In this document: piece after piece, positions 14,574-56,025 of the stretch | How the letters are laid out: every line of letters begins with the position of its first letter | Numbering within the stretch: the stretch's first letter is position 1 | From: an uncultured Bacteroidales bacterium | GTDB taxonomy: Bacteria; Bacteroidota; Bacteroidia; Bacteroidales; Paludibacteraceae | DNA length: 64,000 bases | Assembly (NCBI GenBank): GCA_900316845.1 | Contig: ONEG01000003.1 | Coordinates: 52,814 to 116,813 of the forward strand | Reading direction: 5' to 3' | Position numbers and translations under genes: made by a program | Notes under the pieces: generated by a model | Seen by the model: the letters and a program-made list of their open reading frames with translations, nothing else | Told to the model about the DNA's origin: nothing | The model's database searches: none

Positions 14574-14870
14574 TTATTTTGTCCTGTTTATGGCGGTATT
14601 CCGCCTCTTTATTTGTCCTGTTTGCGGGGCCTTAGCCCCGTATTTTTTTCATCGTCCATTCCGCCGGATGTTATCCGGCTGTCCTTCTTTCTTGTTTTCG
14701 TCGTCCATTATGCCGGATGTTATCCGGCTGTCCTTCTTTCTTGTTTTCGTCGTCCATTATGCCGGATGTCATCCGGCTGTCCTTCTTTCTTCTTTTCATC
14801 GTCCATTGTGCCGGATGTTATCCGGCTTCCCTCCCCTTCATGGGGAGGGTTAGGGTGGGGTTCTTATTTT
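14574..14870 (-). repeat. palindromic repeat array between ftsL and ftsI
   Basis: The 291-base gap holds six consecutive units. Unit 1 has the hairpin GGCGG-TATT-CCGCC and unit 2 CGGGGC-CTTA-GCCCCG. Units 3 to 6 carry GCCGGAT-GTT/GTC-ATCCGGC separated by near-identical linkers of about 33 bases (plus strand TGTCCTTCTTTCTTGTTTTC). The last unit runs into CCCTCCCC-TTCAT-GGGGAGGG followed by TTAGGGTGGGG. The final 75 bases recur almost unchanged inside rsmH at about 15870-15945. No gene is visible in the array. Confidence 0.9.
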
Positions 14871-15178
14871 ACCTTCACCGGCGGTACCCGGTTTTCCTGC
14901 AGCTCACTTCCGTTCTCCTTCAGTACCTCTATCACCTGGCTCTGTCTTGTGCTATTCGTCAGCTGCGCACTAATCGTCATGTACCGGAACTTGGCGTCCA
15001 GCATCTCTTTCTTTGTGTCCGTCAACCGGTGTTGTTGTTTGGCAGACTGATAACCCGTCAGAATATACAAAAAGACCAGACCCACAATCAACCCTATCAG
15101 CGGGTATTGTTCTCTGATCTTCTGGCTCCGCAGCTTATCGCCGTTCAACCAACTCTGTATGTCATGTACATCTGCCAT
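14864..15178 (-). CDS. ftsL: FtsL-like cell division protein
   Basis: A 104-residue bitopic membrane protein: cytoplasmic start (1-25), one membrane helix (about 26-44, LIGLIVGLVFLYILTGY), then a periplasmic coiled-coil-like stretch (50-90). FtsL homologues diverge strongly, so the call rests on size, topology and position between rsmH and ftsI, where ftsL lies in Bacteroidota dcw clusters. It would link FtsB/FtsQ-type partners to the FtsW-FtsI synthase. The last codons touch the palindromic repeat array. Confidence 0.8.
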   Translation of the reverse strand: MADVHDIQSWLNGDKLRSQKIREQYPLIGLIVGLVFLYILTGYQSAKQQHRLTDTKKEMLDAKFRYMTISAQLTNSTRQSQVIEVLKENGSELQENRVPPVKVK

Positions 15179-15198
15179 CTTCTTATTTTTTCATTGCC

Positions 15199-15248
15199 CT
15201 CATCCTCTCGTTTTCATTCGCCCCTCCTCATCCTCTCGTTTTCATTCG
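15199..15248 (-). repeat. 22-bp direct repeat (two copies) between rsmH and ftsL
   Basis: Two identical copies beginning CTCATCCTCTCG at 15199 and 15227, with a period of 28 bases. They sit just left of the branched structured element. Confidence 0.8.
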
Positions 15249-15381
15249 AAGCCCTCCGCCTTTGGCGGACAATCAGTTTATGCCCTCTCGGGGGCGTGTT
15301 TTGGCGAGGGGACGCCAAAACTAGAAGGCAGGGGGCCGATACCCCGAAGGGCATAAACGCTATCCGAATGGCTTTAGGGCT
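15247..15381. other. branched palindromic element with AGGGG loops (copy 2)
   Basis: The core 15276-15358 closes with GTTTATGCCCT / AGGGCATAAAC (15276-15286 with 15348-15358), then TCGGGG / CCCCGA. Inside are two hairpins: GTTTTGGCG-AGGGGA-CGCCAAAAC (15298-15321) and GGC-AGGGG-GCC (15327-15337). An outer shell adds TCCGCC-TTT-GGCGGA (15255-15269) and GAAGCCCT / AGGGCTTC (15247-15254 with 15374-15381), the right arm of which includes the stop codon and last codons of rsmH. The architecture matches 54097-54250. Function is unknown; see findings. Confidence 0.75.
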
Positions 15382-16516
15382 TCGCCTTTTTCTCTGCGAC
15401 CCGCAACTTCGCACTCCGGCTACGCGGGTTCCGTTCTACTTCATCGTCACTGGCCACACGGCCCTTTTCGATAACATCAAACGGAGTAATCGCGTTTCCG
15501 TAAAAGTCCTTTTCTATCGTCCCTTCTAAATTCCCGCTTCGAAAGAAATTCTTCACCAACCTATCCTCCAACGAGTGGTACGTCAGGATCGCTATCCGCC
15601 CTCCGGGCTTCACTAAATCCCGTGCCGCCACCAGCATCTCTCTAAGCGCCCCCATCTCATCGTTCACCTCTATCCGCAGCGCCTGAAACAGTCTCGCCAG
15701 ATCCTTCTTGTACTGCGCCGGTATATCCAGCTCTATTATACCCGCCTTTTCTTCGTCCTGTTCACGGGTCTTTAGGCCTGCGTTTTTCTCTTCTTCTTTT
15801 CCGCGGGATGCCATCCCGCCGTTTCCTTCGTTCTGTTCGCGGGTCTTTAGCCCCGTGTTTTTTTCATCGTTCATTGTGCCGGATGTCATCCGGCTTCCCT
15901 CCCCTTCATGGGGAGGGTTAGGGTGGGGCTGGGCTTTTATGTTCAGCGCCGCGTTAATCAACTCCTCCGTCCGTAAAATCGGCTTCTGAGAACGGGCCTT
16001 GCATATATTCCTTGCGATGCCCCTCCCGTTCTTCATCTCGCCGTATAGCCAGAAAATCTTCGCTAACTCCTCCTCGCTGTACCCATTGACTATATCCGCC
16101 GCCGTGCGTTTCGCCGTCTGGTTCATCCGCATGTCTAACGGCGCGCTGAACCGAAAACTAAACCCTCGCTCCGGACAATCGAAATGGTGAAAACTAACCC
16201 CTAAATCTGCCAGCAACCCGTCAATCTCCTTCACCCCGTAATAATCCATCCAGTTCCGCAGATACCTGAAGTTCGAATGCACAAACGTCCATCTCGGATT
16301 ATCTATGAATGCCGCTTCTCCGTCTTCCTTCGCATTTTCATATGCCTCTATATCTTGATCGAATGAGTACAAATGTCCGCTTTCGAGCCTCTCCAATATC
16401 GCCCTGCTGTGTCCTCCGCCGCCGAAAGTGACATCCACATACACCCCGTTCGGCTTGATCGCCAAACCCTCTATCGTCTCTTTCAGCATCGCCGGTATGT
16501 GGTAAATCTCTTCCAT
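15374..16516 (-). CDS. rsmH: 16S rRNA (cytosine1402-N4)-methyltransferase with repeat-derived insert
   Basis: Methylates N4 of C1402 in the 16S rRNA decoding centre, using SAM. Motif I is TFGGGGHS (30-37). Other matches are LLADLGVSFHHFD (101-113), GFSFRFSAPLDMRMN (118-132), ALRIEVNDEMGAL (279-291) and LTYHSLEDRLVK (311-322). At 380 residues it is about 70 longer than usual. The surplus is residues 196-261, a charged low-complexity segment between the helical domain and the second half of the methyltransferase fold. It is the translation of palindromic repeats also found in the nearby ftsL-ftsI gap. A purine-rich leader precedes ATG 16516. Confidence 0.95.
   Translation of the reverse strand: MEEIYHIPAMLKETIEGLAIKPNGVYVDVTFGGGGHSRAILERLESGHLYSFDQDIEAYENAKEDGEAAFIDNPRWTFVHSNFRYLRNWMDYYGVKEIDGLLADLGVSFHHFDCPERGFSFRFSAPLDMRMNQTAKRTAADIVNGYSEEELAKIFWLYGEMKNGRGIARNICKARSQKPILRTEELINAALNIKAQPHPNPPHEGEGSRMTSGTMNDEKNTGLKTREQNEGNGGMASRGKEEEKNAGLKTREQDEEKAGIIELDIPAQYKKDLARLFQALRIEVNDEMGALREMLVAARDLVKPGGRIAILTYHSLEDRLVKNFFRSGNLEGTIEKDFYGNAITPFDVIEKGRVASDDEVERNPRSRSAKLRVAEKKAKP
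15736..15945 (-). repeat. palindromic repeat cluster inserted in frame in rsmH
   Basis: The coding insert contains CGGGA-TGCCA-TCCCG, CGGGT-CTTTA-GCCCCG, GCCGGAT-GTC-ATCCGGC and CCCTCCCC-TTCAT-GGGGAGGG followed by TTAGGGTGGGG, in the same order and with the same linkers as the last units of the 14574-14870 array. It is read through without a stop and yields repeated peptide words such as GLKTREQ (twice). Confidence 0.9.
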
Positions 16517-53950: not shown

Positions 53951-54096
53951 TTCGATTTTCCTTGCATATGTCAAAAAAAAGTTGTACTTCGGACATCTGC
54001 CTTACCTACGGTAATTTCCCCGTAGCTACGTTCGCATCTTGCGGTGCATACGCAAATCCTGCGCTTTTTTGCTTCCCGCGTCATACTTCCGCTGTG

Positions 54097-54250
54097 GATA
54101 ATTAAAGAGCCTAAGTTTTACTTACGTGAGTATATGCCCCGTAGAGACCGTAGTTTCCGTGCAGGGGGCACGGACGGAAGGGCGCGTTGGGGACGCGCGG
54201 TCTCCGAGGGGCTTATACTCCACGCAGTGCCCTACGGCTCTTTAATTATC
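54097..54250. other. branched palindromic element with GGGG loops (copy 1)
   Basis: A 15-base perfect terminal inverted repeat (GATAATTAAAGAGCC 54097-54111, complement 54236-54250) encloses a second helix made of CGTGAGTATA / TATACTCCACG, GCCCC / GGGGC (54136-54140 with 54208-54212) and GAGACC / GGTCTC (54144-54149 with 54199-54204). Inside stand two hairpins, CCGTGC-AGGGG-GCACGG (54157-54173) and GCGCGT-TGGGG-ACGCGC (54182-54198). The same shape occurs at 15276-15358. No protein gene fits here. It could be a structured RNA or a mobile palindromic DNA element. Confidence 0.75.
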
Positions 54251-54289
54251 GCGAAATTTCATTTCGCCAAGCAAAAAATCGCAGAAAAA

Positions 54290-54321
54290 TTTGCGTATGT
54301 GCAATTTTTGTTGTACCTTTG
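54290..54321 (+). promoter_or_regulatory. promoter of the 54361 / M23 gene pair
   Basis: TTTG (54290-54293), 20 bases, TACCTTTG (54314-54321). The leader is about 33 bases. Confidence 0.8.
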
Positions 54322-54360: not shown

Positions 54361-56025
54361 ATGGCAAAATATAAATGGAGTTTTGCGAACGTAGGCGGCG
54401 TGACGCGCGTACGCATTCAGTCGGCAGAGGACATCCGTCATCTCGGTGAGTTGGACAAGAAGATGTGGACCGTTCTGTCCTGCCCGGTCAATGGTTTGGA
54501 GATCAGCAGCGACTCGTTGAGCCTCATGGACGTCGATGGCGACGGCAAGCTGCGTGTGAAGGAGGTGATCGCTACGGCGGACTACCTCTGCGGCGCATTG
54601 AAAGACCCGAAGACGCTCTTCGAGCAGAGCGACACGATTGCCATAGAGAACATCGCCGATGATGCGGTTAAAGCGGTAGCGGAGAAGATAGCTAAGAGCC
54701 AAGAGCCCGGAGCCGAGAGTATCTCTCTGGCGGAGGTTCAGGCGGCGATTGACGCTGTGAAGATCGAGAAGCAGGCGGTTCCTGCAGCCCCGTTTGAGGC
54801 AGATGTCATTGCAGCCTACAAAGAGAAACAAGCCGAATACGCTGCGTATTTCGAGCAGGAGAAACTGCAGAAACTCGGTTTGGCGGTCATTCCCGAGGAG
54901 ACCCCGAAGCCCGGCATGACGGAGAAGAAATTCAATGAGATGGGTGCGCAGATAGCAGAGTGGGAGGCAGCCAAAGCGGCTGCAGAAACGGCGAACGCCG
55001 ATGCTCTGGCGGCTGCCAAAGCGGAGTTTATGCCGCTGCGCAAGTTGTTACTCCTTCACCGCGATTTCTACCGCTTGCTGCGTAACTTCGTGACCTTCGA
55101 GGACTTCTATGATTATAATAAGAAGACCATCGCCTCGTTTGAGGCAGGAACGTTGATCATCGACCAGCGTGCATGCCACCTCTGTATGCGTGTGAACGAT
55201 CCCGCCAAGCACGATGCACAGGCACCGTTGAGCGGCATCTACCTACTGTACTGCAACTGCGAGAGCAAGAAACTCGGTAAGTCCATGGCGATCGTTGCTG
55301 CCATGACGCAAGGCGATATAAAGAACCTGAGCGTCGGCAAGAACGGTGTGTTCTACGACAATGAAGGTAACGACTACGACGCTACGGTGACGAAGATCAT
55401 CGATAACCCGATCTCTATCCGCCAGGCGTTCTGGACGCCGTACCGTAAGTTCGGCAACTGGATAGAGGAGAAGATCAACAAATCCGCCGCAGAGAAAGAC
55501 GCTAAGGCTTTTGACGACATGAAGACGAAGGTCGAGACGACGAAAGTGGAAGGCGCTCCTGCAGAGGCACCGAAACCTGCGTTCGACATCGCTAAGTTCG
55601 CCGGCATCTTCGCAGCCATCGGTATGGCATTAGGCATGATCGGTACGATGTTAGTGAGCGTAGCGAAAGGATGGGTGACCCTCACATGGTGGCAACAGAT
55701 ACTCGTCTTTGTGGCTATCCTGCTGCTCATCAGCGGCCCGAGTATGATCATGGCATGGCTCAAGCTGCGCCGTCGTAACCTCGCTCCGGTACTGAACGCC
55801 AACGGCTGGGCAGTCAACGCAGACGCCCTGATCTCCGTCATCTTCGGCCGTACGCTGACCGAGCAGGTGAATTTCCCGATTGTCAAAGCGCCGAAGATCA
55901 AAGGCGATATGAGCACCGCTAAGAGATGGTACATCGGTATAGGTATAACTTTATTGGTATTAGTTTGTTTATGCGTTATTTTGCATCTTTGTGGCTTCTG
56001 CTTCTGCTGTTTCTGCTTCCATTAA
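54361..56025 (+). CDS. membrane protein with EF-hand-like motif, unknown function
   Basis: A 554-residue protein with no signal peptide. Residues 56-68 (DVDGDGKLRVKEV) match a calcium-binding EF-hand/dockerin-like loop. A helical, Ala/Glu-rich region (110-225, likely coiled coil) is followed by a mixed domain containing CHLCMRVNDP and YCNCESKKLG. Two membrane helices lie near 410-460 and one at the C-terminus (about 525-550). The tail is extremely cysteine-rich (CGFCFCCFCFH) because its last 55 bases overlap, in another frame, the leucine-rich signal peptide of the next gene. I do not recognise the family; similar proteins may be annotated EF-hand domain-containing. Confidence 0.75.
   Translation: MAKYKWSFANVGGVTRVRIQSAEDIRHLGELDKKMWTVLSCPVNGLEISSDSLSLMDVDGDGKLRVKEVIATADYLCGALKDPKTLFEQSDTIAIENIADDAVKAVAEKIAKSQEPGAESISLAEVQAAIDAVKIEKQAVPAAPFEADVIAAYKEKQAEYAAYFEQEKLQKLGLAVIPEETPKPGMTEKKFNEMGAQIAEWEAAKAAAETANADALAAAKAEFMPLRKLLLLHRDFYRLLRNFVTFEDFYDYNKKTIASFEAGTLIIDQRACHLCMRVNDPAKHDAQAPLSGIYLLYCNCESKKLGKSMAIVAAMTQGDIKNLSVGKNGVFYDNEGNDYDATVTKIIDNPISIRQAFWTPYRKFGNWIEEKINKSAAEKDAKAFDDMKTKVETTKVEGAPAEAPKPAFDIAKFAGIFAAIGMALGMIGTMLVSVAKGWVTLTWWQQILVFVAILLLISGPSMIMAWLKLRRRNLAPVLNANGWAVNADALISVIFGRTLTEQVNFPIVKAPKIKGDMSTAKRWYIGIGITLLVLVCLCVILHLCGFCFCCFCFH

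Follow-up and report, generated by a model that had tools for sequence, protein, structure and literature searches.

Is a palindrome whose stems change while their pairing is kept a structured RNA, or is it a piece of DNA that moves? The question is raised by two places in the window, the whole 64,000-nucleotide stretch of an uncultured Bacteroidales genome analyzed here. A first-pass annotation had described a perfect 15-base terminal repeat around hairpins with loops AGGGG and TGGGG at 54097-54250 (copy A), and a closing helix around hairpins with loops AGGGGA and AGGGG at 15276-15358 (copy B). Both are present, and in neither case did any of 200 shuffles fold as well. The fold of copy A beat all 200 with z -3.3 on the + strand (54090-54236) and z -7.8 on the - strand (54105-54250), the two pieces being trimmed differently at their ends. 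The fold at 15276-15358 gave z -5.0 and -5.7.

Two palindromes and their dispersed family

The features of copy A and its surroundings are listed below.

54097..54250, no strand assigned: copy A, a class A branched palindrome closed by a perfect 15-bp inverted repeat, GATAATTAAAGAGCC / GGCTCTTTAATTATC
54128..54222, + strand: class A core with a three-way junction, matching model R2 at 107.8 bits (G000:C17:106941-107035), copy A being one of the 15 sequences used to build R2
54156..54174, + strand: hairpin TCCGTGC-AGGGG-GCACGGA, loop at 54163-54167
54182..54198, + strand: hairpin GCGCGT-TGGGG-ACGCGC, loop at 54188-54192
54251..54267, no strand assigned: side hairpin GCGAAAT-TTC-ATTTCGC adjoining copy A
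54065..54072, no strand assigned: outer A/T layer of copy A, with left arm TTTTTTGC and its pairing partner GCAAAAAA at 54271-54278
53982..54317 (approximate limits), + strand: larger repeated cassette of ~330 bp enclosing copy A
53962..53991, + strand: promoter-like TTGCATATG ... GTACTTCG, reading into the cassette
54290..54321, + strand: promoter-like TTTGCGTATG ... TACCTTTG, located at the cassette's right end, before the gene at 54361

The stem of the side hairpin is altered yet paired in other copies (GCGGTAT..ATACCGC, GCAGAAT..ATTCTGC). Copy B and its neighbors have the following features.

15247..15384, - strand: copy B, the class B long form, with arms CGAAGCCC / GGGCTTCG, at the rsmH-ftsL junction
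15272..15364, + strand: class B core, matching model R1 at 92.6 bits (G000:C17:68085-68177), copy B being one of the 22 sequences used to build R1
15298..15321, + strand: hairpin GTTTTGGCG-AGGGGA-CGCCAAAAC
15327..15337, + strand: P3 hairpin GGC-AGGGG-GCC, the site of nested copies at other loci
15255..15269, + strand: left side hairpin TCCGCC-TTT-GGCGGA
15359..15372, + strand: right side hairpin GCTAT-CCGA-ATGGC, with the variant GCTAT-CTGC-ATAGT at other loci
15374..16516, - strand: rsmH (MraW family, PF01795), the upstream neighbor of copy B in the sense direction
14864..15178, - strand: ftsL-like gene (PF19579), the downstream neighbor in the sense direction

The stop codon of rsmH (15374-15376) falls within copy B. 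Beyond the limits given at first pass, copy B extends outward to 15247-15384, and copy A is embedded in the larger cassette.

A BLAST search with both window sequences across 101 congeneric genomes returned further copies with different stems. Among the copies listed, the folded relatives repeat one plan, a closing stem, a junction and two short hairpins with G-rich loops, with arms outside. Each window copy represents one class, A or B, of a single dispersed family. We aligned 22 class B cores (alignment A1) and 15 class A cores (A2) freely with MAFFT and built from them the covariance models R1 (class B) and R2 (class A), applied at a cut-off of E <= 0.001, with E-values that are rough. The covariance-model search, which the first-pass annotation had suggested, found class B in 30 of the 101 genomes and class A in 23, giving 41 carriers by hand count. 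In the window's own genome, full-length matches number three for class B and two for class A, both window copies included, so the two copies first noticed are real but belong to a larger set. Copy number is low, at 1-9 per genome and model at E <= 0.001. The models gave 96 (R1) and 50 (R2) matches, summed by hand, with one place common to both; 122 places were analyzed, and ~23 weak, partial or contig-end matches were omitted.

The loops, which had been called conserved and fixed, are G-rich but variable (AAGGGGTA, CATGGGG, TTGGG etc.). GGG stands in both loops in 87 of 122 copies, in one loop in 22 and in none in 13, compared with 3, 26 and 93 among shuffles (one per copy). Many partial copies resemble deletions within palindromes. 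Some individual copies are unusual. Close to the end of its contig, the class A copy at L066 2260-2339 has its AGGGG loop interrupted by another sequence, perhaps the end of an insertion sequence. Among the copies listed, a class B copy (L201 1750-1871) and a class A copy (L266 1188-1304) share an extra hairpin, GGTGTCCCCGCTnATCGGGGAAACC, within the core, which suggests an exchange of hairpin modules.

Across the order, R2 matched one of 295 genomes, the window's own (the genomes listed include two of the same family and one of the same genus); the search with R1 covered the 101 genomes of the genus. An exact class B motif occurred in 43 stretches in the genomes of 84,980 species, all of them Bacteroidales MAGs. 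The titles of these records read Paludibacteraceae, Bacteroidales or uncultured Bacteroidales, and the sites that they name are ruminant gut. One scan of viral contigs gave 0 exact matches to this motif. As far as searched, the family is confined to one genus of Bacteroidales. Rfam, searched with the whole window at the gathering score, returned only a tRNA and left the elements unmatched, and a search of seven loci gave no relevant match at E <= 1.

Alleles, nesting, arms and orientation

The rsmH-ftsL junction was surveyed at 30 loci of the 97 genomes with an rsmH match and could be read at 29. An element is present at three of these 29 junctions (the window's genome, G091 and G018) and absent from the other 26, among which G075, G069 and G087 have other long spacers. 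In G022, whose ftsL is 98% identical, 7 nt separate the aligned ends of rsmH and ftsL. Two further observations concern this junction. A tandem 28-nt repeat (CCCCTCCTCATCCTCTCGTTTTCATTCG type) adjoins copy B at 15191-15246 of the window, with more units in G091. The RsmH of the window's genome carries an in-frame insert of ~70 residues (residues ~190-262, window ~15731-15949) that reads PHPNPPHEGEG... and includes two repeats with GGGGCTAAAGACCCGCGAACAG / AGGCCTAAAGACCCGTGAACAG. The DNA of this insert contains several perfect hairpins; G091 and G018 span it as well, and in most other genomes listed the matches break there.

At the second window site, the cassette of copy A stands between a -33-like and a -7-like element ahead of the gene at 54361, which we take to be parts of its promoter on the basis of the Bacteroidetes -33/-7 consensus. 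The ortholog of this gene in G022 lacks the cassette and has a single uninterrupted promoter-like stretch, which is probably the older state. The region upstream of the G091 ortholog (L302) holds one half, the right, of a palindromic repeat of a different kind. In L302, L086, L089 and L099, a further palindromic insert (AATAGAATTTATTCTATT type) is flanked by two promoter-like halves similar to the ones around the copy A cassette.

In near relatives, then, a given site was seen both occupied and empty, the presence/absence pattern that the first-pass annotation had proposed looking for. Among the loci listed, a single junction holds class A, class B or nothing in different species in two sets (L007/L080/L157 and L072/L078/L201/L199). 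Copies also sit inside one another. In the second copy at L210 (G088), the inner hairpins are replaced by a whole other element relative to the ortholog L039 (G087), with flanks that are 96% and 93% identical. Read by eye, further nested states occur at least at L214, L218, L219 and L229, and several times over at L349. The left part of the outer copy in nested cases stops near the base of the P3 hairpin. Short repeats flank the elements (GAAAAA at rsmH, GTAC..TT.G at the promoter), with extra changes at the junctions; such changes also adjoin the element when the first L210 copy is compared with the near-empty L039 (flanks 95-96% identical). No enzyme, excision or clean target-site duplication was found at the loci and genomes compared. 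The 122 copies form 87 site clusters and include orthologs that do not represent new insertions.

Two other arrangements were considered and set aside. Half copies were read for an autonomous, gene-bearing version, and a half copy on contig C49 of G022, fused to a gene body (its start in L105), looks like a rearrangement. At L070 and L071, class A copies that share an orientation are spaced 0.7 and 1.6 kb apart beside small genes, as in a gene-cassette array, but elsewhere copies lie between housekeeping genes. These two loci also hold, between their genes, other palindromes that share GTGATGCAG / CTGCATCAC arms, and their contigs carry what we take to be a VirE/D5-like gene and a DUF5675-like gene.

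The arms outside the core are mostly locus-specific: they are partners within a copy and differ between copies. Own arms paired well (score >= 8) in 53% of 121 copies, compared with 4.9% when arms were mixed between loci. Good pairing was found in 77% of 43 class A copies and 40% of 77 class B copies, and class B arms exceeded mixed arms modestly (median 6 versus 5). Insertion of an element into the loop of an older, unrelated palindrome could produce such arms, but no palindrome of that kind stands in L274 or L157, the empty alleles of rsmH-ftsL and of the L007 site, and we rejected this origin for both sites. The arms therefore arrived with the element or after it.

Copies show a biased orientation relative to genes. 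With ORFs of >=100 aa, called by length alone as in all of these counts, 53 copies have both flanking neighbors directed against the G-loop strand and 18 have both directed along it (binomial p 4e-5, kinship of sites ignored); neighbors are convergent or divergent in 26 copies, and one side is unread in 25. Of 122 copies, 44 have the stop of an ORF of >=200 aa near the core on the sense strand (opposite the G-loops), and 4 have one on the other strand; counted by site cluster, the figures are 32 versus 4 of 87. The stop bias shrinks as the ORF cut-off is lowered, to 48 versus 12 at 150 aa and 63 versus 37 at 100 aa. At 150 aa, it is 10 versus 3 of 43 class A copies and 38 versus 9 of 78 class B copies. 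Start codons alone, sense versus other strand, number 54 versus 56 (100 aa), 41 versus 29 (150 aa) and 33 versus 19 (200 aa). A stop and a start of ORFs of >=200 aa are both in range in 24 copies on the sense strand and in 0 on the other. Copy B conforms to this rule, its genes running opposite to the G-loop strand, whereas copy A breaks it, with neighbors co-directional on the + strand.

Covariation, candidate enzymes and rival explanations

Compensatory stem changes are usually taken as proof of a functional RNA, and class B shows them almost without G-U pairs. Kept double changes were seen in 11 of 19 consensus-fold pairs in A1 and 10 of 23 in A2. When 79 class B rows (A3) and 44 class A rows (A4) were aligned to R1 and R2, 95.1% and 96.7% of cells paired, bearing out the early claim of altered stems with kept pairing in a constrained branched plan. 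Double changes affected 18 of 19 pairs in A3 (344 cells) and 18 of 23 in A4 (182 cells). The covariation score of both alignments, sought as the annotation had advised, was reached by 0 of 500 shuffles, and the signal was lost when the partner was shifted by 1-3 columns. The number of further pair types in A3 was no higher than in shuffles (261 of 500 reached it).

A G-U pair on one strand is an A-C mismatch on the opposite strand. Scarcity of both is therefore expected where complementarity is kept in DNA and not in one RNA strand. The G-U share of class B (A3) was 0.9%, compared with 12.4% for RNase P RNA of the same genus (the best 30 of 84 genomes with a match), and the ratio of one-sided to two-sided changes was 0.02 compared with 0.28. 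In the free alignments, G-U pairs made up 1.2% in A1 and 8.5% in A2, where 24 of 28 G-U cells lie in two nearly fixed U-G columns; re-aligned rows gave 1.0% (A3) and 3.3% (A4). Under the model structure, G-U accounted for 13 of the 1409 pairs of A3 and for 76 of the 954 pairs of A4, the latter largely in two nearly fixed U-G columns. Class A changes under the same structure were 36 one-sided and 182 two-sided, close to the RNase P ratio; with RNAalifold columns the class A values were a G-U share of 2.4% and a ratio of 0.10, and re-aligned they were 3.3% and 0.18. Folds of single sequences contained 7.7% and 4.5% G-U (two strands), compared with 12.1% for RNase P, a smaller gap in the same direction. 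As judged from these alignments, the covariation of class B points to DNA rather than to one RNA strand; the argument is weaker for class A because of its G-U counts under the model structure. Junction residues are conserved in A2, and template switching by itself does not account for them. Template switching in replication can create, repair and fix stems in one event, according to one study (PMC8794818).

We surveyed the 101 genomes for candidate enzymes. Y1_Tnp matches occur in 30 (25 above the family cut-off), the window's genome included. By hand count at E <= 0.001, 13 of 41 carriers and 17 of 60 non-carriers have one (Fisher p 0.83). Of the 40 listed Y1 loci, the 20 that were searched with R1 and R2 gave no significant copy (best E 0.6). 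No genome had an integron integrase above the TIGR02249 cut-off (0/101), and weaker tyrosine-recombinase matches occur in all 101. One Y1_Tnp-like protein is unusual: L126 1213-2472 (G000:C21) encodes 419 residues with a weak match and a long extra C-terminal part, and the gene directly before it resembles Wadjet JetD. A relative of this protein occurs at L129 (G018), between genes that resemble parts of a type I restriction system.

Taken together, the dispersed copies, the occupied and empty alleles, nesting, stem turnover with kept pairing, locus-specific arms and biased orientation lead us to favor, by somewhat better than even judgment, a family of small, non-autonomous, mobile DNA palindromes that form cruciforms and are moved in trans by a putative enzyme. 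The first-pass annotation had offered a non-autonomous DNA element as one of its two readings. Each copy would fold into a branched hairpin, with a closing stem, a junction and two hairpins mostly with GGG(G) loops, and the putative enzyme would recognize this folded shape and its G-loops rather than a fixed sequence. New copies may insert at the ends of genes and into P3 of copies already present. Template switching on the hairpin, selection for the extruded shape or a combination of the two could make and keep the locus-specific arms. Either the way in which the strand is exposed during insertion or counterselection of the reverse orientation in mRNA could underlie the orientation bias. The full form of this scheme, in which a recombinase or transposase binds the extruded G-loop hairpin and inserts it one way at gene ends and P3 while template switching rewrites the arms, is tentative, and we hold it to be less probable than its negation.

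A cis-acting structured RNA of operon mRNAs, transcribed directly after the stop codon and serving to protect the mRNA end, to process the transcript or to couple a gene to the following one, would fit the biased orientation and the position behind stops with the next gene soon after (24 versus 0 copies), as well as the strong covariation, the conserved junction residues, and the G-U pairs and one-sided changes that class A retains. We nonetheless regard it as unlikely: class B nearly lacks G-U, unlike RNase P RNA of the same genus, the same junctions are empty in relatives (26 of 29 at rsmH-ftsL, and others too), whole copies are nested within others, the elements have no Rfam family, and the start-codon bias by itself is weak (33 sense versus 19). 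The related early suggestion of an RNA whose G-loops bind a partner loses ground for the same scarcity of G-U in class B (weaker in class A), and also because the G-loop strand lies mostly opposite the genes. The copies could instead be immobile, functionless relics of ancestral palindromes, with complementarity kept by template switching, which can create stems in one event as noted above, and with absence explained by deletion, of which the many partial copies have the look. That account is improbable, however, given that empty is the majority state at rsmH-ftsL, that whole copies lie inside others, that loops and junctions recur across loci, and that orientation is biased. Recognition of the hairpins by a Y1 tyrosine transposase of the genus, in the manner of REP/RAYT or IS200/IS605 and also raised at first pass, has in its favor the Y1_Tnp matches in 30 genomes and the likeness to REP repeats, extragenic palindromes of which some families sit inside longer palindromes (PMC3733652). 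It is very improbable, since Y1_Tnp is unassociated with carriers, the 20 Y1 loci searched of the 40 listed gave no significant element, and the GTAG tag is not kept. By eye, 9 of 15 class A rows have GTAG ahead of the inner core, and before P3 class B has GTAG in 10 of 22 rows, GTCG in 10 and another sequence in 2. PMC3733652 describes GT pairing as frequent in GTAG repeats, whereas it is rare in class B.

With class B stems covarying almost without G-U pairs, the family offers a natural test case for separating DNA-level from RNA-level covariation, and for weighing template switching against shape-specific recognition as the keeper of palindrome complementarity. It could also aid the study of DNA recognized by shape and not by sequence, in carriers that are so far mostly ruminant-gut bacteria, and it represents a self-nesting, gene-end-biased repeat in a bacterial order.

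Comparison with known systems

The family resembles REP, BIME and REPIN sequences in being small, extragenic, palindromic and non-autonomous, with low sequence constraint on the stems and an occasional place within other palindromes. It differs in size and build, with a branched core of ~95 nt plus arms compared with a REP hairpin of 20-40 nt, in lacking a fixed GTAG or CGTC tag and any association with RAYT, in its biased orientation relative to genes and in its few copies per genome. MITEs of bacterial insertion sequences are likewise short, palindromic, non-autonomous and mobile; the arms of this family, unlike theirs, mostly differ from copy to copy though paired within a copy (53% versus 4.9% between loci), and an unsystematic look brought up no parent insertion sequence.

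In integron attC sites, shape is kept while sequence varies, and the sites stand behind a stop codon in fixed orientation. The shape of the present family also outlives its sequence, and its copies, too, are often found behind stop codons. However, the carriers have no integron integrase above the cut-off, and the copies are single and lie between housekeeping genes. BOX/RUP, ERIC, RU-1 to RU-3 and the Rickettsia palindromic elements are interspersed palindromic or structured intergenic repeats, and we know of none among them that combines a branched core bearing two G-loop hairpins with stems that turn over by Watson-Crick changes and copies nested in one another. Among the records listed by our literature searches, no such self-nesting, gene-end-biased family appeared for Bacteroidales. 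The defining features of REP and attC that were tested are absent from the family, which belongs among the small dispersed palindromic repeats.
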